Positions 10,953 through 30,287 of a DNA stretch of 36,653 bases are shown in pieces. The stretch is from Flavobacteriales bacterium (GTDB lineage: Bacteria > Bacteroidota > Bacteroidia > Flavobacteriales_F > PHOS-HE28). Each line of letters begins with the position of its first letter. Position 1 is the first letter of the stretch. The position numbers and the translations under genes are program-made. Location of the stretch: NCBI GenBank assembly GCA_017987115.1, contig JAGNUG010000025.1:1-36653 (forward strand). The letters run 5' to 3'. The notes beneath the pieces are model-generated. The model had not been told where the DNA came from. It did no database searches and saw nothing but the letters and a program-made list of their open reading frames with translations.

Positions 10953-11693
10953 ATGATCTTCAGGACGTATCACGGATTGACATCTCCCGATCGCCGCAAG
11001 AGGGAGTCCTTTGTTGCTCAGGCCGCTAAGAAAGGAGCGCAACTCGTAGTTTTTCCTGAAGATGCCGTTACTGGTCCCCTGACCGGACAAACGGCTTTTA
11101 TTGACAACGCACCTGTTTATTTAAGGCACTTCCAAAAATTGGCGATCAAGTTCAACATCGATATTGTTCCTGGCTCCTGGACCGTTCTGGATGAAGGTCT
11201 TCTATACAATACGTCCTACTATATAAACAAAGATGGCTGTGTTGCCGGAAGTTACAGTAAGATCAATCTGTGGGAAACAGAGAAATTATCACATGCACCA
11301 GGTAGAGCGGTTCTGTATTACCGACCGCACATGGTTTAATGGGTCAGATCATTTGCTGGGATCTGTCATTCCCAATGTGCTTTGAAGCAATGAATGGACT
11401 TGGTGTTGAAATAGTGATCTCACCTACATGTTGGGTCGTTCACGATGCCAGAGCATCACGTTGAGGATGTGGTTGATGACGCAGTGCTATTGAGAGATTC
11501 ATTGTGTCTAGCGCGTGTGTTCGCGAACAATATCATTTTCGCGTAATGCAATGCAGCAGGTGAACTGGATGTGAATGGTGTGGTTACTGTCCTTAGTGGT
11601 AGGAGCCAAGTAACACATCCGGTCGAAAAAGTGATCTACAAAGCGCAGGGTAACGAGGAAGAGCTCCTATTGACACGTGTCCAACTACGCTGA
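10953..11693 (+). pseudogene. Carbon-nitrogen hydrolase (nitrilase/amidase family), degraded
   Basis: Three reading frames together spell one nitrilase-family protein. Frame one (10953-11339) has the catalytic Glu in 'GAQLVVFPEDAVTGPL' and the catalytic Lys in 'GSYSKINLWETEKLSHAPG'. From about 11339 the next frame gives 'GQIICWDLSFPMCFEAMNG' with the catalytic Cys, then 'VEIVISPTCWVVHDARAS'. From about 11450 the third frame runs 'EHHVEDVVDDAVLLRDSL', 'ARVFANNIIFA', an in-frame TAA near 11546, then 'CNAAGELDVNGVVTVLSG' to a stop at 11691-11693. All three catalytic residues remain but the protein cannot be made. The N-terminal strand before 'PDRRKRE' is also not recognisable in frame. With two frameshifts and a stop, true decay is more likely than sequencing error. 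Confidence 0.88.
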
Positions 11694-15266: not shown

Positions 15267-15698
15267 CTATCGTGGGACCAAGTGCAATTCAAGATCATCA
15301 CCTTTTTCACGCAACCACAATTCATCTTCCTTCAATCGCAGGATCTCATAGGTGCGGTCCGCGGCACCGTTCTCAAAGTCCAACCGCAGATCCTCCTTGC
15401 TGTCCTCCAAGCTCCAAGTGCCATCGGTCTGGAATTCGAAGCTTAGACTCCCTAAATTGTACAGTGCAGCCAGTGTTGCATTTCCATTATGCAACATCTG
15501 AAGTTCATATTGATCGAAGTCAGAAGTAACGGTCTGCCCGTTGTTGATAGCTTGCTCCACGCGCCATGTATTTGCGATCCGCTCTTTCTTGGACCGTAAG
15601 CTGACTAGCGGGCCATCCTCGTACTTCTTGCAGCTTGTGGTCAATAGACCGATCGCTAGGGTAAGGAGAAATGTTCTTCTTAATGTTTTCATGTTCAT
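15267..15698 (-). CDS. Lipoprotein, lipocalin-like, paralogue of the upstream gene
   Basis: About 143 residues from the ATG at 15698, with a second Met two codons later. The signal peptide ends in the lipobox 'LLTTSC', followed by 'KKYEDGPLVSLRSKKERIAN'. The mature part is a small beta-rich domain: 'TWRVEQAINNGQTVTSDF', 'YELQMLHNGNATLAALYN', 'FEFQTDGTWSLEDSKEDL', 'DRTYEILRLKEDELWLRE', 'GDDLELHLVPR'. This looks like the lipocalin-like domain of many Bacteroidota lipoproteins, in which a loss-of-function-style alternating beta pattern makes an eight-strand barrel. It is clearly homologous to the next gene upstream. Ligand unknown. Operon with 15737-16171 and the FMN reductase. Confidence 0.85.
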   Translation of the reverse strand: MNMKTLRRTFLLTLAIGLLTTSCKKYEDGPLVSLRSKKERIANTWRVEQAINNGQTVTSDFDQYELQMLHNGNATLAALYNLGSLSFEFQTDGTWSLEDSKEDLRLDFENGAADRTYEILRLKEDELWLREKGDDLELHLVPR

Positions 15699-15736
15699 AT
15701 TCGTGTTAAGGTCGTGCGTGTAGGTAGTTTCGGATC

Positions 15737-16171
15737 TCACTGGGTCTTCAGATGTAGCTCCAGATCGTCACCGACTTGGCGCAACCAAAGCTGCGTTTCC
15801 GTTAACCTGCGTATTTGGTAGGTACCGTCTGCAGCATCATTCTCGAAATCCATCACCAGTTCTTCATCGCTATTCTGAAAATTCCACGTTCCATTCGTAT
15901 CGAACGTGAAGTCTGCTCCGAACACAGTGTAAGTTGCGAGTAGCGTTGCATCGCCATCGCTCGTTAGCGTAAGAACATAATTGTCAAAGTCGCTGGTCAC
16001 ATTGTTACCGTCAGCAGTGGCTTGGTCGATCACCCACGTGTTGGCTACACGTTCAGTGCGCGACGTAAGAGAGATAGCAGGGCCATCGTCGTATTTTTTG
16101 CATGCGGTGACGGCAAGTAGAAGGATCAGAGAGAATAGAGCAAGAAGGGGAAGATTGTATTTGGTAGTCAT
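15737..16171 (-). CDS. Lipoprotein, lipocalin-like, first gene of the operon
   Basis: This 144-residue protein has a signal peptide 'LLALFSLILLLAVTACKKYD', lipidated at Cys24. It then follows its neighbour block for block: 'DGPAISLTSRTERVANTW', 'NNVTSDFDNYVLTLTSDG', 'DATLLATYTVFGADFTF', 'TNGTWNFQNSDEELVMDF', 'TQLWLRQVGDDLELHL'. Conserved Trp and the 'VTSDFDxY' block are shared by both. The two genes arose by tandem duplication. The Lys residues right after the Cys (CKKY) suggest periplasmic or surface lipoproteins, but sorting cannot be settled from sequence. No enzyme motif is seen. It heads the operon that ends with the FMN reductase. Confidence 0.85.
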   Translation of the reverse strand: MTTKYNLPLLALFSLILLLAVTACKKYDDGPAISLTSRTERVANTWVIDQATADGNNVTSDFDNYVLTLTSDGDATLLATYTVFGADFTFDTNGTWNFQNSDEELVMDFENDAADGTYQIRRLTETQLWLRQVGDDLELHLKTQ

Positions 16172-16795
16172 AATTGCTTGTTTAGATCAACTCATTCTAT
16201 ATAGACCATGCCATAGCGGTTCATGTATCATGAATATCCAGTGAACATCGGGCTTCTAGGGCTATGATAGAAAACACCGGATCCTCTAAAAGGGCTCTGA
16301 TCGTGGAAATATGTACCAGGTTCTTACCGGATATGGGGTGATCGATTCACAGGACAGTTGTTATATGTGATGATGCCCTTTCGATAACAATGGCGAATTG
16401 TTCCTGTCGAGTGAACTTTGATGAAGAACATGATTTTAATGAGCTACACTTTCGGTCTTTTGCGTTGCTTGCTGATCGTGAAGAAAAGTTCTATCCTAAT
16501 AATGTCGTGCCTAGAAAATTGAGGGTCCTGATTTGATACAAGGTCATACTTGTTCGTTCGAGATCCGTGGCATTGATCAGCTGTTTTCCGCAGATCAACA
16601 AGCATTTTGAATTTCTGAAGATTGAATTTCTGCGGAAGTTTTTCCCCAAAATTCTACACTCGGTCCGTGTTGATCAAAAGCCTTTTTATCCCTCCTAGTA
16701 TTGGAGTACTACAGCGGCGCGGAAAAGGGTAGGACATCCTTGAGCAGCTCTCCCATGACCGTGCCGAATTCCTCTTGTGAAGAACGTCGGAAGCA
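16172..16795. other. Long divergent intergenic region upstream of the giant hybrid sensor
   Basis: About 620 bases with no gene. It separates the lipoprotein operon (minus) from the giant signalling gene (plus) and must carry both promoters. It holds the inverted/direct repeat structure at 16586-16637. Confidence 0.5.
16586..16637. promoter_or_regulatory. Inverted repeat enclosing a tandem 11-mer, upstream of the giant sensor
   Basis: TTCCGCAGA (16586-16594) and TCTGCGGAA (16629-16637) are perfect 9-bp inverted repeats. Inside and overlapping the right arm, TTGAATTTCTG occurs twice (16607-16617 and 16622-16632), 15 bases apart. The right arm is followed by GTTTTT. It could be an operator, or a terminator-like attenuator about 160-210 bases before the gene start. 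Confidence 0.4.
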
Positions 16796-16849
16796 ATGCA
16801 TTCCAACAATTATCTTGGTGCTCCGAAATGCCCTATCCACTTACTAATT

Positions 16850-19800
16850 ATGCCGAAGAGTCGTGAAATGAAGGAACCCGAAATGCTTACCATTCCGGAA
16901 ACCGCTTCCCTATTGCATGTCCATCCGAACACCATCCGTGCTTGGATGCGAAAAGGGAAGTTGGTCGCGGTGAAAATGGGCAAGGAAGAAGTAGACATGT
17001 TCCACAAGGCCGATGTACAAAAATTGATCAAACCATTGGAGAAACAGGGCGCGATCGTGAAAGAGGACCTACAGGCATTTCCGGTGGTGGGGATCGGCGC
17101 ATCGGCCGGTGGTATGGATGCCATGGGCAAGTTGCTTTCCAAGTTGCCAACGGACCTTGGTCTCGCTTACATCTTCGTTACACACATGGAAGATGATCGA
17201 GAGGAAATGGTAGTGGAATTGCTGCAAAAGAAAACAGCCCTACCCGTTGTGATCTCAGAGAATGGTGCACGTTTGAAACCAGATCAACTCTACGTTGCGG
17301 CAGCAGGAATGCATGTTTCCGTTGTGAACAATTCGATCACATTACAGCGTCCTGGGAATTTGCCTCAAGCCATGATACGCCCCATAGATGCATTGTTCAG
17401 GGGACTGGCGAATGAATACCAGAATAATGCCATCGGTATTTTATTGAGCGGTGGAGGTATGGATGGTACGCAAGGATTGCGAGCGATCAAAGCCGAAGAT
17501 GGATTGGCAATTGTGCAAGATGGCTCAGCGCTTGACCCAGCCATGCCACGGAATGCACAAGAGGCAGGGGTTGTCGATCTTGTATTGGCGCCAGAAGCGA
17601 TCGGTCCGCAACTCACCGAACTGGTAGAGCGCCTTTTCCCTTCGGGGGATACGCGTTTGCCTGCTAAACATGAAAATGAACTGCACCGGATCTTACGCCT
17701 CATGCGCGAACTACGTGGTGTTGATTTTACGCAGTACAAGGAAACGACGATCCATCGGCGTATCATTCGACGCATGGTACTGAGCAAGTGTACCAAGTTG
17801 AGCGACTACCTGAAATTATTGCGTGAAGTCCCTGCCGAAGTGGATACGCTCTTCACTGAGTTGTTGATCAACGTGACCAGTTTCTTTCGTGATCCCGATT
17901 TCCACAAAGCCCTTAATGAGCATGTATTCCCGGAATTGTTCAAGGATCGAGCAGGGAATGATACACTGCGTATCTGGATCCCGGCATGCGCTGGTGGTGA
18001 GGAAGTAGTTTCAGTAGCGATCGATCTCTTGGAATTCCTCCGGAAGCAGTCCATCACGACCACTGTGCAGATATTCGCTACCGACCTGAATGAACGCAAC
18101 ATTGACAAGGCGCGTTTGGGGATCTACAAGAAAACCGCGTTGCAGGATATCGAGCCTGAACGATTGCGTCAATTCTTCCAACCGGTGGATGGGCACTATC
18201 AAGTAATCAAGAGCATTCGCGATATGTGCGTATTCGCGAAGCATGACCTTCTTAAGGATCCACCATTCTCTCGGGTGGACCTGATCAGTTGCCAGAATAT
18301 GTTGATCTATATGGAGAACGCGTCACAAGGTCGCATCCTGAAGAATTTCCATTATGCATTGACACCGAATGGATTCTTGGCTCTAGGGAAAAGTGAGACC
18401 GTTGCCAATGCTCCGGACCTATTCGTGCAACCGGAACGCGGTCATAAGGTATTTCAAAAGAAGAATGCAGGGGCTGCTACAATACCGTTGGATCTTAATT
18501 TCAAACCATCCTTGTTACAACCGTTATCAACGATGGTGCCCAATGGTCCGCGTCCTGCCGTGAACTCTGTGGAACTGGAACGCGATCTCGAGCATGTTCT
18601 TTTGGAACGGCATGTACCCGCCAGTGTTCTGGTGAACAAACACTTTGAGATCGTTCGGTTCATGGGCCCTGCTTCCAAATACATTCTCCCGCGAAGTGGA
18701 AGAGCAACATTGAACCTATTGAAGATGGTGCGTGAGGACCTCGTCTTTGAAGTGCGTACGCTATTGCAGCGCGCCCGTAGGGACAAGTCATCAGCTCAAA
18801 AAGCAGGCATACCTGTGAAGTTCAACAACGTATTGTATGACCTGACCATTGAAGTTGAACCGATCGGAGGAATACGTGACCCCCATTTCTTAGTGGTCTT
18901 TAAAGACCAAGTGGCCGCAGCATTTGAACCGATCGATAAGGATGCACTTAAGTCAAAACAGCGCGATGCTCGCGATAAGCGCATTGCCATGCTTGAGCGG
19001 GACCTGAGGGATGCACGCGAACAATTACGTATTATCAGCGAGGAAAGTGAACTTGGTACACAAGAACTCCAAGCGGCGAATGAGGAAGTGGTCTCTTCTA
19101 ATGAAGAGCTGCAAAGCATCAATGAAGAATTGGAGACCAGTAAAGAGGAACTCCAAAGCATTAATGAGGAGTATGCTACGATCAATGAGGAATTGCGATT
19201 ACGTAATGACTCATTGAAGGAAAGCCAGGACCGCTTGGAACTGGCCACTCGTACTGGCAAAGTGGGGATATGGGATTGGGATATTGTCGCTGATCACATT
19301 ACGTGGAGCGAATCGCATTATGCCCTCCATGGCGTGAAACCCGGAATCTTTGAACCGACAGTGAAAGGATTTGCCGAACTGGTGCATCCAGAGGATCGGG
19401 ACCGTATTGTTGCGGCCATTGATGCAGCGTTGAAACATAATGCTAAGTACGAACTCGAGTTCCGTTCAGTGCGGCCGGACGGAAAAGTGATCTGGCTTTT
19501 CTCGAACGCGTCGGTGATCCGGGCTAACGGAAAGCCCGTGCGCATGCTGGGCGCAACGCTGGACATCACTGATCTCAAGGTAGCGGAAAGCGCTTTACAG
19601 GAACGCACCCGCGCACTCGAGGTGATGAACACAGTTGGGGCCTCGTTGATCGCCGAGGTCGATACCGAGACGATCATTCAGGCTGTTACCGACGCGGCGC
19701 GGCTGGTGAGCGGTGCCGAATTCGGCGCCTTCTTCCACAACCGGATCGACGAGAAAGGAGAGTCCTATATGCTCTACACGCTCAGCGGGGTTCCGCACGA

Positions 19801-22800
19801 GGCGTTCGAAAAATTCCCCATGCCCCGGGCCACGCAACTGTTCGGACCCACCTTCCGGGGCGAAGGCGTGATCCGGATCGACGACGTGCGCAAGGACCCG
19901 CGGTACGGCAAAATGGCACCTCACTACGGCATGCCCAAGGGGCACCTGCCCGTATGCAGCTATCTGGCGGTGCCGGTGGTATCCCGGAACGGTCAGGTGC
20001 TCGGCGGGCTTTTCTTCGGTCACAAGGAGCCGGGTCGATTCAACAAGGAAGGGGAGGAAATGGTCACCACCCTTGCCTCTCAAGCGGCCATGGCCCTGGA
20101 CAATGCAGGCTTGCACGATGCGCTACAGAAGGAGTTGGAGCAGCAGCGGATCGCGGAGGTAGCGCTGCGCGAGAGCGAGCAGCGCTATCGGGAGTTGTTG
20201 ACATCACTGCCAGCTGCGGTGTTTGCTTGTGACGCCGAAGGCCACTTGGGTGTGTACAACGAAGCCGCCGTACAGCTTTGGGGACGGCAACCGGAAACGG
20301 ACGAGCGATGGACCGGAGCCTTGGGGCTGTTCGACAAGGATGGCCATGCGATCGCGAAGGCCCAGAGCCCCATTGCACGCGCGATCGGGGAAGAGAAGTC
20401 CATCCGGGATGAGGTCATCATCGCACGCCCCGATGGCTCCCGGCGCAATGCTATGGCTTATGCTGAGCCGATGCGGGACGCCTCAGGAAAGGTGATCGGT
20501 GGACATTGCGTGTTGATCGACATCACCGAACGGAAAGAAGCTGAGGCTGAACGGGAGCAGCTTTCCGGCATGCTCGAACGCAGCCTGAACGAGATCTTCA
20601 TCTTCGATCTGGACAGTTTGAATTTCGAGTACGTGAACCACGGCGCATTGCGCAATCTGGGGTACACGCTCGAGCAGATGCGGAGCATGACTCCGTTGGA
20701 CATCAAGCCCGGAATGAACGCGCGGCAGTTCGATGAAATTGTAAAACCTCTTCGCAAGGGCGAAGAGGAAATGATCGAGTTCTATACGGTGCACCGCCGT
20801 GCAGACGGAAGTGACTACCCTGTGGAGGTGCATCTGCAGGTCTTGCAGAACGGCCCCAAGCGCTTGTTCATGGCCATGATCCTCGACATCACGGAAAGGA
20901 AATTGGACGAGGAGCGGATGCTCGATCTAGGTGCGCGCTTGGACCTTGCGTTGGATTCGGCCGATCTGGGAACATGGAACATCGATGGCAAGGTTGAGCA
21001 GATGACCACCGATGGTCGGTTCAAGTCCATTTTCGGATGGCAGGAGGATACGATCTCCGTTGCACAAGCGTTCGGAGTGCTCCATCCCGATGATCGCGAA
21101 CGGGTATCGGCCGCCATTGCCGGGGCCACCAGACCAGAGGACACCGTGCCCTACGAGATCGAATACCGCGTCATCCATCCTGATGGCTCCATCCATTGGG
21201 TGTTGGCCAAGGGCCGGTCGACCTTTACGGTGGGAGCCGCAGGCAAGGAACTCCTGAGTTTCGACGGAACGGTTCTGGACATTACAGAGCGTAAGGCCTC
21301 CGATGCTGCGGAACGCCGGTTGGCGGCCATCGTGGAATCATCCGAAGATGCGATCATCGGGGTGGATCTGGAAGGGGTCATCTCCGACTGGAACGACGGG
21401 GCAGAGATTCTATTCGGGTACGCTGAGGAAGAAGTGATCGGCCGATCGATCACGGTCCTGCTGCCCGACGATCGTAAAGAAGAGGAATCAAACCTGCTCA
21501 CACGGATCGCGAATGGCGAACGGGTAGAACATTTCGAGACCAAACGACAACGGAAAAATGGCTCGTTGGTGGATGTGGCGTTGAGCATTTCAGCGATCAA
21601 GGACGAGCTGGGTGTCGTTGTCGGGGCCGCCAAGATCGCCCGCGACATTACCATTGCTAAACGAGCGGAAGAAGAACTTCGCACCAGCGAGCAACGGTTC
21701 CATCTATTGGCGGACAATGTTTCGCAGTTGATCTGGATGGCCGAAGCGGATGGAAGCAACATCTGGTTCAACAAGCGCTGGTATGAATTCACCGGTATGA
21801 CCAACGAGGAGATACAAGCCAACCCCAAAGCCCTGTATCATCCGGATCATTTCGCAAGGGCCACCACCTCCATGTATGAACGAATGGGGAAAGGGGAGCA
21901 ATGGGATGACGTGTACCCGTTGAAGGGAAAGGATGGGAAGTACCATTGGTTCTTGGCCAATGCAATGCCCGTGAAGGATGGGGATGGCACGGTGCTCCGG
22001 TGGTTCGGTACGTGTACCGATATCACCGACCAGCGCTTAGCACAAGAGAAGATGCGAGAGAGCGAGGAACGGTTCCGCTTATTGGCGGACAACATCGCCC
22101 AGCTCGCTTGGATCGCTGAGCCGAATGGGGACATCCATTGGTACAATAAACGGTGGTTCGATTATTCCGGCACCACACCGGAAGAAATGGATGGATGGGG
22201 ATGGACGAAGATCCACCATCCGGACCATGTGGAACGCGTGACCGAGAAATTCAAGAAGCACATACAGGAAGAGCGCGATTGGGAGGATACCTTCCCGATC
22301 CGTGGTGCGGATGGCCAGTATCGTTGGTTCCTTTCCCGGGCGTTCCCGGTGCGCGATGGCCAAGGTGTGGTGCAGCGGTGGTTCGGTACAAATACGGATG
22401 TGACCAAGGAACGTGAAGCAAGGAGATTACTCCAGGAGAGCGAGGAACGCATGCGTTTGTTGGCGGAGAACATGTCGCAGATGGCCTATATCGCTTCCAC
22501 CGACATGAAGATACAATGGGTGAATAAGCGTTGGTTGGATTATACAGGCTTGGATGCTCAGGACATGAACAACGGTGGTTGGGAGCGTGCGGTTCATCCC
22601 GAAGACCTGTCGAAGATCACAGCCACTTTCGCGGAAGCAATTTCTTCCAAACGGCCATGGGAACATGTCTTTAAATTGAAGAACAAAGAAGGAGAATATC
22701 GATGGTTCCTTTCGATCAGCGTCCCGATCATCAATGAAAAGGGTGAGATTGAAAAGTGGTTCGGTACCAATACCGACATTACGGATCGCAAAGCCGTGGA

Positions 22801-23923
22801 AGAAGAACTGGCAACGATCGCGACGAACAAGGACAACTTCCTGGCAACTCTTGCACATGAACTCAGAGGTCCTTTGGCCCCGCTGAAGAACGGGTTACAA
22901 CTGATGGAAATGGCAACCGATGACCCAGCAGTGCAAGAGAACACACGCGGGATGATGGTGCGCCAACTGGACCACATGGTGCGCTTGGTGGACGACCTGA
23001 TGGACCTTAGCCGGATCAACACCGGCAAGTTCAAACTCAACATGGACGAAGTAGATATCAGTGATGTGGTGGCCACAGCCATGGAGGCCAGCAGACCCGA
23101 GATCGATCGTAACGGACACACATTGAGTGTTGACGTGAGCAGCGAAATGCTCTTGGTGAAAGGTGATCGTGATCGGCTGGTACAGGTGGTTTCCAACCTT
23201 TTGAACAATGCGGCCAAATACACACCAGAAAAAGGCAGGATCAGTGTGGTCGTTGAACATAGAGCGAATGATGTATTGATCCGTGTAAAGGACAACGGCA
23301 TCGGTATAGCGCCGGAACACATCAATAATGTGTTCGACATGTTCGCGCAAGTGGATATGCAACAGAAATCAAGATCGGGAGGTGGGTTGGGTATTGGACT
23401 GAACATTGTACAGCGAATGATGGAAAATCATAACGGGTCTGTGCATGCCTATAGTGAAGGCCTAGGAAAAGGCAGTGAATTCACCTTAAGGATACCGCGC
23501 ATGACAGATAAGATCGTACCGGCCGCCATCCCGGTGAACACAGTCAGCGAGCAAGGTGCCAAGCGGCGCGTACTGATCGTGGATGATAATGAAGATGCGG
23601 CCCTTTCCATGTCCATGATCCTGAAGAAACGCGGACATACTGTCAATGTAGCGCACGATGGGCAAGCTGCAGTTGCGGCAGGAGCGGAGTTCAAACCCGA
23701 ATTGGTGATCATGGATATCGGCATGCCCAAGATGAACGGCTACGAAGCATGCGCGGCAATGCGCAACACCAATTGGGGAAAGAATTGCCTGATCTTCGCA
23801 CTAAGCGGTTGGGGTCAAGAAGAGGATCGGCAGAAAAGCAAGGAGGCGGGTTTTGATCGACATGTGGTCAAACCCATAGATCGCGCTACGTTGGAGTGGA
23901 TCGTATTGCAAGAAAAAGGATGA
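16850..23923 (+). CDS. Giant hybrid signalling protein: HTH-CheB-CheR-PAS/GAF array-histidine kinase-receiver
   Basis: About 2,357 residues counted from the ATG at 16850; starts at 16796, 16868 or 16883 are also possible. Order: excisionase/MerR-like HTH (12-60: 'LTIPETASLLHVHPNTIRAW'); CheB methylesterase (79-265) with Ser85 in 'GIGASAGG', His112 and Asp205, spaced as in CheB; CheR methyltransferase (278-537; 'TELLINVTSFFRDP', 'ACAGGEEVVSVAI'); divergent PAS (574-686); coiled coil (704-790, 'SSNEELQSINEELETSKEEL'); PAS (792-914); GAF (921-1087); seven PAS domains (1111-1979); HisKA with His2003 in 'LAHELRGPL'; HATPase (2101-2217; 'NLLNNAAKYT', 'DNGIGIAPEH', 'GGGLGIGLNI'); receiver with Asp2289 in 'VIMDIGMP'. 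There is no membrane segment, so it is cytoplasmic. CheB-CheR-PAS-kinase fusions are known; the N-terminal HTH is unusual. It probably senses several signals and phosphorylates its own receiver. Confidence 0.95.
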   Translation: MPKSREMKEPEMLTIPETASLLHVHPNTIRAWMRKGKLVAVKMGKEEVDMFHKADVQKLIKPLEKQGAIVKEDLQAFPVVGIGASAGGMDAMGKLLSKLPTDLGLAYIFVTHMEDDREEMVVELLQKKTALPVVISENGARLKPDQLYVAAAGMHVSVVNNSITLQRPGNLPQAMIRPIDALFRGLANEYQNNAIGILLSGGGMDGTQGLRAIKAEDGLAIVQDGSALDPAMPRNAQEAGVVDLVLAPEAIGPQLTELVERLFPSGDTRLPAKHENELHRILRLMRELRGVDFTQYKETTIHRRIIRRMVLSKCTKLSDYLKLLREVPAEVDTLFTELLINVTSFFRDPDFHKALNEHVFPELFKDRAGNDTLRIWIPACAGGEEVVSVAIDLLEFLRKQSITTTVQIFATDLNERNIDKARLGIYKKTALQDIEPERLRQFFQPVDGHYQVIKSIRDMCVFAKHDLLKDPPFSRVDLISCQNMLIYMENASQGRILKNFHYALTPNGFLALGKSETVANAPDLFVQPERGHKVFQKKNAGAATIPLDLNFKPSLLQPLSTMVPNGPRPAVNSVELERDLEHVLLERHVPASVLVNKHFEIVRFMGPASKYILPRSGRATLNLLKMVREDLVFEVRTLLQRARRDKSSAQKAGIPVKFNNVLYDLTIEVEPIGGIRDPHFLVVFKDQVAAAFEPIDKDALKSKQRDARDKRIAMLERDLRDAREQLRIISEESELGTQELQAANEEVVSSNEELQSINEELETSKEELQSINEEYATINEELRLRNDSLKESQDRLELATRTGKVGIWDWDIVADHITWSESHYALHGVKPGIFEPTVKGFAELVHPEDRDRIVAAIDAALKHNAKYELEFRSVRPDGKVIWLFSNASVIRANGKPVRMLGATLDITDLKVAESALQERTRALEVMNTVGASLIAEVDTETIIQAVTDAARLVSGAEFGAFFHNRIDEKGESYMLYTLSGVPHEAFEKFPMPRATQLFGPTFRGEGVIRIDDVRKDPRYGKMAPHYGMPKGHLPVCSYLAVPVVSRNGQVLGGLFFGHKEPGRFNKEGEEMVTTLASQAAMALDNAGLHDALQKELEQQRIAEVALRESEQRYRELLTSLPAAVFACDAEGHLGVYNEAAVQLWGRQPETDERWTGALGLFDKDGHAIAKAQSPIARAIGEEKSIRDEVIIARPDGSRRNAMAYAEPMRDASGKVIGGHCVLIDITERKEAEAEREQLSGMLERSLNEIFIFDLDSLNFEYVNHGALRNLGYTLEQMRSMTPLDIKPGMNARQFDEIVKPLRKGEEEMIEFYTVHRRADGSDYPVEVHLQVLQNGPKRLFMAMILDITERKLDEERMLDLGARLDLALDSADLGTWNIDGKVEQMTTDGRFKSIFGWQEDTISVAQAFGVLHPDDRERVSAAIAGATRPEDTVPYEIEYRVIHPDGSIHWVLAKGRSTFTVGAAGKELLSFDGTVLDITERKASDAAERRLAAIVESSEDAIIGVDLEGVISDWNDGAEILFGYAEEEVIGRSITVLLPDDRKEEESNLLTRIANGERVEHFETKRQRKNGSLVDVALSISAIKDELGVVVGAAKIARDITIAKRAEEELRTSEQRFHLLADNVSQLIWMAEADGSNIWFNKRWYEFTGMTNEEIQANPKALYHPDHFARATTSMYERMGKGEQWDDVYPLKGKDGKYHWFLANAMPVKDGDGTVLRWFGTCTDITDQRLAQEKMRESEERFRLLADNIAQLAWIAEPNGDIHWYNKRWFDYSGTTPEEMDGWGWTKIHHPDHVERVTEKFKKHIQEERDWEDTFPIRGADGQYRWFLSRAFPVRDGQGVVQRWFGTNTDVTKEREARRLLQESEERMRLLAENMSQMAYIASTDMKIQWVNKRWLDYTGLDAQDMNNGGWERAVHPEDLSKITATFAEAISSKRPWEHVFKLKNKEGEYRWFLSISVPIINEKGEIEKWFGTNTDITDRKAVEEELATIATNKDNFLATLAHELRGPLAPLKNGLQLMEMATDDPAVQENTRGMMVRQLDHMVRLVDDLMDLSRINTGKFKLNMDEVDISDVVATAMEASRPEIDRNGHTLSVDVSSEMLLVKGDRDRLVQVVSNLLNNAAKYTPEKGRISVVVEHRANDVLIRVKDNGIGIAPEHINNVFDMFAQVDMQQKSRSGGGLGIGLNIVQRMMENHNGSVHAYSEGLGKGSEFTLRIPRMTDKIVPAAIPVNTVSEQGAKRRVLIVDDNEDAALSMSMILKKRGHTVNVAHDGQAAVAAGAEFKPELVIMDIGMPKMNGYEACAAMRNTNWGKNCLIFALSGWGQEEDRQKSKEAGFDRHVVKPIDRATLEWIVLQEKG

Positions 23924-26534: not shown

Positions 26535-29500
26535 ATGGACAACAATGCACGATCCCGTTACGCGGAGCCGTTGGCGCTACCCTCGAAAGTGAAGTTTGCA
26601 CTCTTAGCATGTTGCATGGTCCTGAGCAGTTTGGTCGTTGCTCAAGGAGGCTCTGAGTGTGATGCATTTGCGGGAACCTTAACCGGTTTCAAGCCAACTG
26701 ATTGTTTATTGGACGGTGGCACGGCCATTGGTGGAATTCCCAATGGTGATGCGGTGGTGCCTGCTGGTTATTCCAAGGTATATGTGCTTACCACAAGCCC
26801 TGGAGCGATCATTCAACAAGTTCGTACCGTGCCGATCTTCGATGTAACCACCGAGGCGACCTACACGATCCATACATTGGTGTATGATCCTGCTACATTG
26901 GACCTTACTATCGTTGTTCCCGGAGTTACTTCCGCCAGCACGGTGAATGGTCTGTTGGTGCAAGGTGGTGGGTCCATCTGCGCTGGTCTGGATCTCGTGG
27001 GCACACAGATACTAGTGGCCAACCCAAGTACGGGCAGCATTACTGCAGTAATGGATGAAGTTTGCATTACCGGAGGGTCGGCAACCGTAGCGGCCTCTTC
27101 TGCGGCGGGCACGGTGGTTCCGGAAGGATACAATGTCCTCTATGTACTTACGAACGGAGCGGGTCTTGTGATTGAAGACGCATCAGCTACACCGGAATTT
27201 GAGGTGAACGCGGTGGGCTCCTATACGATACATACGTTGGTCTATGATCCTGCAACTTTGGACCTGGATGTTGTTCAATTCGGAATTACCACCGGGTTCG
27301 ATGTCAACAGCCTGCTGTTCCAAGGTGGAGGTAATATATGCGGTGTTCTTGATGTTGGCGGTGCACCCGTGAATGTGGTGGAGTGCAATACCGATTGCAC
27401 GGCTTACGCTGGTACGCTCTCCGGTTTCAAACCAACTGACTGCTTGCAGGAAGGTGGTACAGCGATCGGTGGAATTTCCAATGGCGACAAGGTGGTACCC
27501 GCGGGGTATGAAGTGCTCTATGTTCTCACCAGCGCTCCTGGTGCTATAATAGAGCAAGTTAGTAACGTGCCGATCTTTGATGTGTTGGAAGAAGCGGTCT
27601 TCACAGTTCATACGTTGGTTTATGATCCTGCAACACTTGATCTGAGCACAGTGCAACTCGGTGTTACAAGTGCAGCCGCAATTCACGATCTTCTTATTGA
27701 AGGTGGCGGTTCCATCTGCGGGTCACTGGATCTTGTTGGTACTACCATTCAGGTCGAGAATCCGGAATCCGGTGGACTCACCGCAGTGGAAGCACAGGTC
27801 TGTATTGTTGCTGGTTCCGCAATTATTAGCGCTACGCCGAGCGGTGGGCTATACGTGCCGAACAGCTACAGTGTATTGTATGTGCTTACTCAAGGTCCCG
27901 GACTTGTGATCTTGGATACGAGCAGCGAACCAATGTTCTCAGTTACCGAGTTGGGTGACTATACCATACACACGCTGGTTTACGACCCAGCGACATTGCC
28001 ATTGGGCGGTGTGGTGCCTGGAACTACAACAGGTTTCGATGTGAACGGTATGCTGCTCCAAGGTGGCGGCGGGATCTGTGCAGTACTGGATGTTGCAGGT
28101 GCACCGATCGAAGTGATCGAATGCAATGTTCCTTGTCTCACGGATGCGGGTTCATTGTCGATAGGTTCGTTCGAGACCTGCTTGGTGGATGGACAAGCTG
28201 TTGTTACGGCTTTCGTTGAAGATGCTCCGACCGTACCAACTGGATATGAAGTGATCTACGTTCTTACATCCGGAACGGACCTTGTTCTTCAGCAAGTCTC
28301 CGAAGACCCCAACTTCTTCGTTTCGAATGATGGTACGTTCACCGTTCATACGTTGGTGTATGATCCTGGCACCCTGGATCTATCAATTGTGAATCTGGGA
28401 GTTACAACAGCTGCGGCTGTCAATGCGCTATTGATTCAAGGTGGTGGTCTCATTTGTGGGTCGCTTGATCTGGTCGGTGCTACCACGCTTGTTATTGATT
28501 GCAATATCGAGTGCTTTACACATGCGGGATCGTTGACCGGTAACGAGACTCCTTGCTTATTGGATGGAATGGCAACGATCTCTGCCACACCAAATGGTGA
28601 TGCCGTGGAGCCATCAGGTTACACCACCATCCATGTGCTCACAAGCGGTGCAGGGTTGATCATTCAACAGACCTCTACAACGCCAAGTTTCGCCATATCC
28701 AATACGGGTCTTTACACCATTCATACATTGGTGTATGATGCCAACACGCTGGATCTTGGCATTGTGGTGTTCGGTTCAACTCCTGCGAGTGCGGTCAACG
28801 AGTTGCTTCTTCAAGGAGGAGGAGATATCTGTGGTAGTTTGGATGTTACCGGTGCATCATTCGTTATTGAGGAATGCACGACCGATTGCATAGCTGATGC
28901 TGGAACACTGACAGGAAATGATGCTCCTTGTCTTGAAGTAAGCCCTGTTCTTGTTACAGCGGTTGCAAATGGCGATGCACTGGAGCCTGCAGGTTATTCT
29001 ACGCTTTTTGTTCTGACCAGCGGAGATGATCTGGTGATCGAAGCTGTTAGTGCCGACCCATCGTTTGCCGTAGATATGATAGGTGTTTATACCATCCATA
29101 CGTTGGTGTATGACCCGAGTTCCCTCGACCTGACGATAGTTGAATTCGGGGTGACCACTGCGTCTGAGGTGAATGCCATGTTGATCCAAGGTGGTGGTGA
29201 TATCTGTGCTGCGTTGGATGTGGACGGTGCGTCCTTTACGATCGAACCATGTTCCACGGAATGCATCATTTCTGCTGGGTCCATAACAGGTGTGAATCCT
29301 CTGGGTTGTCTGTCGGATGGGGCCTCTACGTTGATCGCTACGCCAAATGGAGATGCGATCATACCTCCGGGTTTTGTTCAGAACTACGTGTTGGCATACG
29401 GCCCGGATCTGGTGATCATGCAGGTCGGTCCCAACCCATCATTCCTAATTACAACACCGGGCGTGTACTCCATGCATTCCATTGTGTACAACCCAGCAAC

Positions 29501-30287
29501 GCTTGATCTGTCGATCATCGAACTGGGGGTATCCACAGCGGCAGAAGTTGTTACATACATCCTTTTGAACGGCGGCAATATTTGCGCTGCCCTCGATCAG
29601 ACCGGTGCTCAATATGCCATTGGTAATTGCTTGGAACCGTGCTTAGCAAAGGTTCACCTGATCGCCAATGGAAGTGGCGGTTGCTTGGTGAATGGAGAGA
29701 TCACATTGTCCGCAACGCCGAATGCCAGCATGATGGTGCCTCCTGGGTACACTGTGGCGTATATCCTAGCAAGTGGTGCAAGCGCAGTGATCGAGGAGAT
29801 CAGCCCAACGGCGAGCTTTACGGTGACCACTCCCGGTGCATATTCGATACACGGTCTGGTCTATGACCCGTTGACATTGGACCTTTCGTTGATCACCCCG
29901 GGGATGTCCACCATGGATGCCGTTCATATCCTGCTTACTCAAAGCGATGAACCTTTCTGTGCAGGTATAGATATTCCTGGAGTACCGTTCATTGTGACCG
30001 ATTGCGGAAATATTATCACCCAACCTACCACTGCTATCTGGCCTGTACCCGTTGTGGACCAATTGAATGTGCAGGTCAGCGAGCGGATAACGGGTCACAA
30101 CTCCCAAGTTGTACTTACTATCCTTGATGCCATGGGTCATCAGCTCCTAAGTGAGAAAGTGACCGGTAATGCAACAGTGCCATTGTCGTTGAATGTGCTA
30201 GGGCTTACTCCGGGCACCTACACTTTGCGTGTTCAAAGTGTCCATGGCGTTGAATCGCAGCGGTTCGTTAAGATCGGTCAGAAATAG
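26535..30287 (+). CDS. T9SS-exported surface protein of nine ~125-residue repeats
   Basis: This 1,250-residue protein has a signal peptide with a long n-region ('KVKFALLACCMVLSSLVVAQ'). Nine copies of an unrecognised beta-rich domain follow, marked by '[VL]P-x-GY-x3-YVLT', 'YTIHTLVYDPATLDL' and 'LLxQGGGxICGxLD', plus conserved Cys at the repeat start, about residue 15 and in 'ICG'. The end (about residue 1165 on: 'IWPVPVVDQLNVQV', 'VVLTILDAMGHQLLSEKV', 'LGLTPGTYTLRVQS') is a type A T9SS sorting domain, so it should cross the outer membrane by type IX secretion and be released or attached to A-LPS. The repeats resemble stacked Ig-like modules in length and pattern, suggesting an adhesin or surface filament. 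No enzyme motif seen. A 21-bp tandem repeat lies just upstream. Confidence 0.9.
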   Translation: MDNNARSRYAEPLALPSKVKFALLACCMVLSSLVVAQGGSECDAFAGTLTGFKPTDCLLDGGTAIGGIPNGDAVVPAGYSKVYVLTTSPGAIIQQVRTVPIFDVTTEATYTIHTLVYDPATLDLTIVVPGVTSASTVNGLLVQGGGSICAGLDLVGTQILVANPSTGSITAVMDEVCITGGSATVAASSAAGTVVPEGYNVLYVLTNGAGLVIEDASATPEFEVNAVGSYTIHTLVYDPATLDLDVVQFGITTGFDVNSLLFQGGGNICGVLDVGGAPVNVVECNTDCTAYAGTLSGFKPTDCLQEGGTAIGGISNGDKVVPAGYEVLYVLTSAPGAIIEQVSNVPIFDVLEEAVFTVHTLVYDPATLDLSTVQLGVTSAAAIHDLLIEGGGSICGSLDLVGTTIQVENPESGGLTAVEAQVCIVAGSAIISATPSGGLYVPNSYSVLYVLTQGPGLVILDTSSEPMFSVTELGDYTIHTLVYDPATLPLGGVVPGTTTGFDVNGMLLQGGGGICAVLDVAGAPIEVIECNVPCLTDAGSLSIGSFETCLVDGQAVVTAFVEDAPTVPTGYEVIYVLTSGTDLVLQQVSEDPNFFVSNDGTFTVHTLVYDPGTLDLSIVNLGVTTAAAVNALLIQGGGLICGSLDLVGATTLVIDCNIECFTHAGSLTGNETPCLLDGMATISATPNGDAVEPSGYTTIHVLTSGAGLIIQQTSTTPSFAISNTGLYTIHTLVYDANTLDLGIVVFGSTPASAVNELLLQGGGDICGSLDVTGASFVIEECTTDCIADAGTLTGNDAPCLEVSPVLVTAVANGDALEPAGYSTLFVLTSGDDLVIEAVSADPSFAVDMIGVYTIHTLVYDPSSLDLTIVEFGVTTASEVNAMLIQGGGDICAALDVDGASFTIEPCSTECIISAGSITGVNPLGCLSDGASTLIATPNGDAIIPPGFVQNYVLAYGPDLVIMQVGPNPSFLITTPGVYSMHSIVYNPATLDLSIIELGVSTAAEVVTYILLNGGNICAALDQTGAQYAIGNCLEPCLAKVHLIANGSGGCLVNGEITLSATPNASMMVPPGYTVAYILASGASAVIEEISPTASFTVTTPGAYSIHGLVYDPLTLDLSLITPGMSTMDAVHILLTQSDEPFCAGIDIPGVPFIVTDCGNIITQPTTAIWPVPVVDQLNVQVSERITGHNSQVVLTILDAMGHQLLSEKVTGNATVPLSLNVLGLTPGTYTLRVQSVHGVESQRFVKIGQK
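26658..30010 (+). repeat. Nine-fold tandem protein-domain repeat within the T9SS protein
   Basis: Repeat starts, taken at the first conserved Cys codon, fall at 26658, 27396, 28134, 28512, 28887, 29262 and 29640. The first two intervals are exactly 738 bases and each holds two 'HTLVYDP' units; the second unit of each pair lacks the N-terminal 'AGTLxGF' part. Later intervals are 375 or 378 bases with one unit each. Copies 8 and 9 are the most diverged ('MHSIVYNP', 'IHGLVYDP'). Confidence 0.85.

Follow-up and report, generated by a model that had tools for sequence, protein, structure and literature searches.

A single open reading frame in the window, the 36,653 bp stretch of Flavobacteriales DNA analyzed here, spans positions 16796-23923 of the forward strand in the window's ORF list (2375 aa) and encodes a CheB-CheR-PAS hybrid histidine kinase headed by a helix-turn-helix (HTH) domain. 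The locus raises the question of whether this DNA-binding-type fold is a genuine part of the protein and, if so, whether it connects the kinase to DNA or serves another purpose.

Architecture of the fusion protein

The order of HTH, CheB with its catalytic triad, CheR, at least eight PAS domains, GAF, HisKA, HATPase and receiver put forward in the preliminary description was borne out by Pfam and NCBIfam searches and by alignment to the structure 1chd (Table 1), with HTH_17 scoring above the family cut-off by Pfam as well as by the genome scan. CheB is followed by CheR in one chain and then by PAS domains and a kinase core, the arrangement of CheB-CheR-PAS hybrid kinases, and the same order is present in the related proteins of two other species of the same genus (G005 and G022; the window's own genome is G000). 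On sequence, the phosphoacceptor, ATP-binding and receiver domains are all recognisable. The protein had also been described as free of membrane segments, in agreement with a maximum 19-residue hydropathy of 1.51, for a membrane-segment threshold of 1.6 over 19 residues.

Table 1. Features of the HTH-CheB-CheR kinase locus (window positions; residues in the numbering of the 2375-aa frame)
Feature	Position	Strand	Residues (Pfam)	Evidence
Candidate operator, intergenic repeat element	16586..16637	.		inverted repeat TTCCGCAGA/TCTGCGGAA around two direct TTGAATTTCTG copies
HTH_17-CheB-CheR-PAS(8+)-GAF-HisKA-HATPase-REC protein, probable start	16850..23923	+		open reading frame; Pfam; NCBIfam; relatives' starts
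HTH_17 / MerR-BldC-like winged helix-turn-helix	16883..17029	+	30-77	PF12728 36.9 bits, above cut-off; Pfam 30.5 bits vs cut-off 27; structure model; BldC-DNA matches
CheB methylesterase, catalytic Ser/His/Asp present	17087..17614	+	CheB_methylest 98-273	PF01339 152.9 bits; alignment to 1chd
CheR N-terminal and SAM-binding domains, SAM motif altered	17678..18427	+	CheR_N 295-344; CheR 359-544	PF03705, PF01739; alignment to 5ftw
Coiled-coil stretch, then tandem PAS and one GAF	19190..22730 (approximate limits)	+	GAF 956-1102	sensory_box model (TIGR00229, NCBIfam), 8 stretches; several Pfam PAS models; GAF model
HisKA and HATPase_c kinase core	22829..23500	+	HisKA 2012-2077; HATPase_c 2123-2235	PF00512, PF02518, all above cut-off
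C-terminal receiver domain	23570..23896	+	Response_reg 2259-2367	PF00072 82 bits, above cut-off

Translation probably starts at 16850 rather than at the first ATG of the frame (16796), 18 codons before the start that the relatives point to; the start codons of both relatives sit 13-14 residues ahead of the HTH, in agreement with position 16850. Numbered from this start, the CheB residues S85, H112 and D205 align with the Ser/His/Asp of 1chd and are invariant in all three relatives. The SAM motif of CheR departs from that of 5ftw (ACAGGEEVVS vs ACSTGEEPYT), so that the domain is recognisable and its predicted activity not assured. The same motif (17972-18013, aa 393-406) is shared by the window and G005 and reads GCSSGEEAVS in G022, and methyltransferase activity may therefore differ inside the clade.

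The winged helix-turn-helix and the upstream region

The HTH was modeled alone, because modeling it together with CheB gave too low an overall confidence (pLDDT 50). The predicted topology is helix-helix-strand-strand-helix (H15-22, H26-35, E41-43, E48-52, H53-65; core pLDDT 81-86), and the best PDB matches, by sequence and by fold, are BldC-DNA complexes and the Pukovnik phage excisionase. By its profile match and modeled topology, the domain is a MerR/BldC-type winged HTH (wHTH).

BldC reads bases through Arg30 and Lys26 and docks its wing through His46, Arg47 and Arg48; either R30A or H46E abolishes DNA binding (PMC5859096). This BldC/excisionase contact set (Arg30 and the basic wing His46/Arg47/Arg48) is not retained in the fusion proteins: the corresponding positions hold Asn26, Ala30, Glu46 and Glu47 in the window, with a wing free of Arg, then Asn26, Ala30 and Glu46 in G005, and Asp26, Glu30 and Glu46 in G022, with Glu at the minor-groove His46 position throughout. 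Net wing charge is -2, 0 and -2 in the window, G005 and G022, respectively. A comparison set of 34 HTH_17 domains, with 18 distinct wings among them, spans 0 to +4 and includes no acidic wing (0/34). The recognition helices of the window (HPNTIRAWMRKGK, net +4) and G005 (+3) are basic, as in the compared domains, versus -1 in G022, whose HTH has a net charge of -5. An Arg is kept in the window and G005 at BldC position 29, a site occupied by a conserved Arg in MerR proteins, and the BldC head-to-tail oligomer-interface positions are mostly still apolar in the HTH, with W31 and G44 identical. Judged by these residues, DNA binding appears weakened rather than excluded, because the window recognition helix is still basic, and other basic helix residues may contact DNA. 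Of the earlier proposal that the HTH binds DNA directly, the fold has held up, and the Ala at Arg30, the Glu at His46 and the lost wing arginines speak against the rest; these residues do not favor direct DNA control by the kinase, which is possible rather than likely.

A DNA-bound HTH could anchor the kinase at a promoter, so that one soluble protein would sense, phosphorylate and regulate transcription. The above-cut-off HTH_17 match, the MerR/BldC fold and the basic recognition helix are consistent with such a role, as is the candidate operator located in the 624-bp divergent intergenic region ahead of the kinase gene, a 9-bp inverted repeat enclosing two TTGAATTTCTG copies 15 bp apart. The direct repeat, which was chosen after looking, arose in 2/1000 shuffles, the inverted repeat in 125/1000 and the two together in 0/1000, making the direct repeat, and not the inverted repeat alone, unlikely to be due to chance. 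However, even with up to 3 mismatches allowed, the element has no other occurrence in the genome, and it is absent upstream of the G005 and G022 genes, and the autoregulation through 16172-16795 suggested in the preliminary description was not upheld. Ala30, the shared Glu46, the acidic or neutral wings and the negatively charged HTH of G022 likewise argue against promoter anchoring, and with a receiver already in the kinase a DNA output is not needed. A search for a Bacteroidota-type promoter pattern returned none. We regard promoter anchoring as unlikely, if well within reach; of similarly low probability is a promoter-binding sensor kinase in which stimulus, phosphorylation and possibly methylation would set the DNA occupancy of one soluble protein, a design that, if true, would combine one-component with two-component regulation in the same polypeptide.

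Divergent to the kinase gene, positions 15267-16171 of the window hold two tandem, related, small lipoprotein-like genes (~145-157 aa); the one searched against Pfam has no match. In G005 (L015, 14588-14719), the gap between a MEDS gene and the HTH-CheB gene contains a perfect, operator-like palindrome, TGTGGAAA-TG-TTTCCACA, unlike the window's element.

Distribution and origin of the fusion

An HTH-CheB query matched only three of 45 genus genomes (G000, G005 and G022), the only ones with any matching CheB, and all three proteins start with the HTH; the same fusion is present, in other words, in 2/44 other species of the genus. An order-level search gave the same 45 genomes. The G005 protein (2351 aa) shows 65% identity over HTH and CheB, and the G022 protein (1530 aa, with fewer PAS domains and no GAF) 40%, with a diverged HTH slightly under the Pfam cut-off (26.0 bits vs 27). 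The nonsynonymous/synonymous ratio of change in the HTH is 0.44 against G005 (95% interval 0.27-0.72, Fisher p 0.0007) and 0.58 against G022 (0.41-0.84). Because of these ratios, the HTH is to be read from its sequence as translated coding DNA under purifying selection and not as a chance extension of the frame; its placement in frame ahead of CheB, as first described, is corroborated by the coding-type substitutions, the above-cut-off score and its retention in both relatives.

To place the fusion among related proteins, we examined 395 class and 395 phylum genomes, in which CheB-CheR kinases are numerous. None of ~55 other CheB-CheR kinase N-termini read in these samples carries an HTH; these proteins have a short, mostly Lys-rich tail and then CheB directly. 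Likewise, when the 395 class genomes were searched with a profile covering HTH and linker, no other CheB or kinase frame was found to carry the domain. In a CheB-CheR tree inferred without the HTH columns, the three HTH proteins form one clade (100/97), and the window CheB-CheR falls among such fusions, within a starred group of 26 rows (100/100). Long branches meet at G022, which leaves the grouping surer than the exact placement. One change on this tree accounts for the HTH label. Together, the HTH-free N-termini and the single clade look like one fusion event: as shown by the tree, and within the sample, the HTH was apparently joined to the kinase N-terminus once, in an ancestor of the genus. 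The fusion is real and rare, phyla beyond Bacteroidota having been sampled through plasmids only and the whole-collection scan reaching close relatives only.

The preliminary description had asked whether orthologues lose the HTH. No member of the clade has lost it, but beyond the genus the nearest CheB-CheR kinases are without exception HTH-free, so the HTH is dispensable for core function. The domain could then be a decaying leftover of the gene fusion with no present function, as its faster evolution relative to CheB (59% vs 68% identity to G005, 23% vs 46% to G022) and the abundance of sister kinases without it would allow, but ratios significantly below 1 in both comparisons and a fold predicted intact and kept in all three members make this improbable. 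An artefact of assembly or annotation, with the HTH drawn from a neighboring gene or from a wrong upstream start, might be suspected in a draft contig with an early first ATG, but is refuted for practical purposes by the coding-type substitutions and by the same stop-free fusion in two other genomes, one of them matched to a public MAG contig (JAGNSU010000006.1).

Several further candidates were discarded. A Spirosoma plasmid match (query 2-248) is a stand-alone CheB behind stops, its HTH part being a chance extension, and plasmid matches from Novosphingobium and Hymenobacter lack the HTH. Descent of the HTH from an HTH-MEDS gene was also rejected, none of nine MEDS frames read in the class having an HTH. 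Separately, HTH_17-type domains occur N-terminally on apparent C5- or N6-type DNA methyltransferases of Bacteroidia (L121, L123, L127 and L128); among the matches to the HTH-plus-linker profile, two larger frames resemble, by eye, N6-type and two ~440-aa frames C5 methyltransferases. The wings of two tabulated C5 methyltransferase HTH_17 cases are basic.

Genomic context and proposed function

MCPsignal chemoreceptors were not found in G000 (96% complete), G005 or G022, and were detected in 7 of 14 control genomes. The chemoreceptor substrate expected of CheB and CheR in chemotactic adaptation is thus missing from all three fusion genomes, and the kinase therefore works outside chemotaxis, as had been anticipated. 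Neighboring genes in the window encode a catalase and DksA/TraR-type, DUF2383, FMN reductase, PNPOx-like, MgtC and CsbD proteins. Several recur near the G005 and G022 kinase genes, with ferritin-like and topoisomerase IB genes also near the latter. Such a neighborhood points to stress physiology but does not prove it. The HTH-CheB gene of G005 is preceded, at a distance of 132 bp and in the same orientation, by a MEDS gene whose product is a possible partner of the kinase; MEDS genes are absent from G000 and G022, and no MEDS remnant was found upstream of the window gene. Elsewhere in the window, a nitrilase-like frame (10953-11339, 128 aa) looks truncated or frameshifted in view of its 257-aa relative in G022 (L016, 7439-8212), and positions 26535-30287 encode a 1250-aa secreted-looking protein with many similar repeats of ~110-130 aa and a C-terminal sorting-type end.

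The reading that we favor, to which we give an even chance, is a soluble multi-sensor CheB-CheR-PAS hybrid kinase with a non-chemotaxis role, probably in stress, whose once-fused wHTH would serve mainly in oligomerization or docking. The PAS/GAF array would sense soluble or redox cues and drive HisKA autophosphorylation, with transfer to the fused receiver and on to an unlinked partner; no cognate response regulator was identified for this kinase. CheB and CheR, if active, might tune either the kinase itself or some non-chemoreceptor partner. Because much of its DNA-contact chemistry is lost, with fold and hydrophobic faces kept, the HTH would act mainly in head-to-tail oligomerization or protein docking, residual non-specific DNA contact being possible in the window species. 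CbpM, with a MerR-like fold without DNA-binding residues, binds a J-domain (PMC4063869), a precedent suggesting by analogy that such a fold can act through protein binding.

CheB-CheR-PAS kinases are common in the Bacteroidota genomes sampled, and our literature search found no paper on their substrates and none naming a studied CheB-CheR hybrid kinase. A natural fusion of apparently single origin in genomes without chemoreceptors offers a clean case for CheB/CheR roles outside chemotaxis. The DNA-binding-type fold grafted onto the kinase either gives it a direct output on DNA or is a domain shifting from contacts with DNA to contacts with proteins, and the three fusion proteins provide graded HTH divergence for testing.

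What is new here is the wHTH tip on an already known type of kinase. The CheB-CheR-PAS hybrid kinases of many Bacteroidota likewise have CheB first, CheR next and then a long sensor-kinase frame; in the class as a whole, the best homologues with an open frame share 35-42% identity with the window protein in the CheB region. These kinases start at CheB after a short tail, whereas the window protein places a wHTH before CheB and is unusually long (2357 aa vs about 1000-1450 in most relatives). In DcmR-type regulators, described for Methylohalobius (PMC11507031), an HTH is joined to a MEDS small-molecule sensor in one protein, whereas in G005 MEDS is a separate gene beside the HTH-CheB gene. BldC and the Pukovnik phage Xis, the top PDB matches, resemble the window HTH in fold and length, but are small free-standing DNA-binders with basic wings, in contrast with its kinase-fused position and acidic wing. 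CbpM, likened through a fold match (3ucs_B, Z 7.1), also has a wHTH-type fold without DNA-binding residues, but regulates a chaperone as a stand-alone protein that contains a coiled coil.
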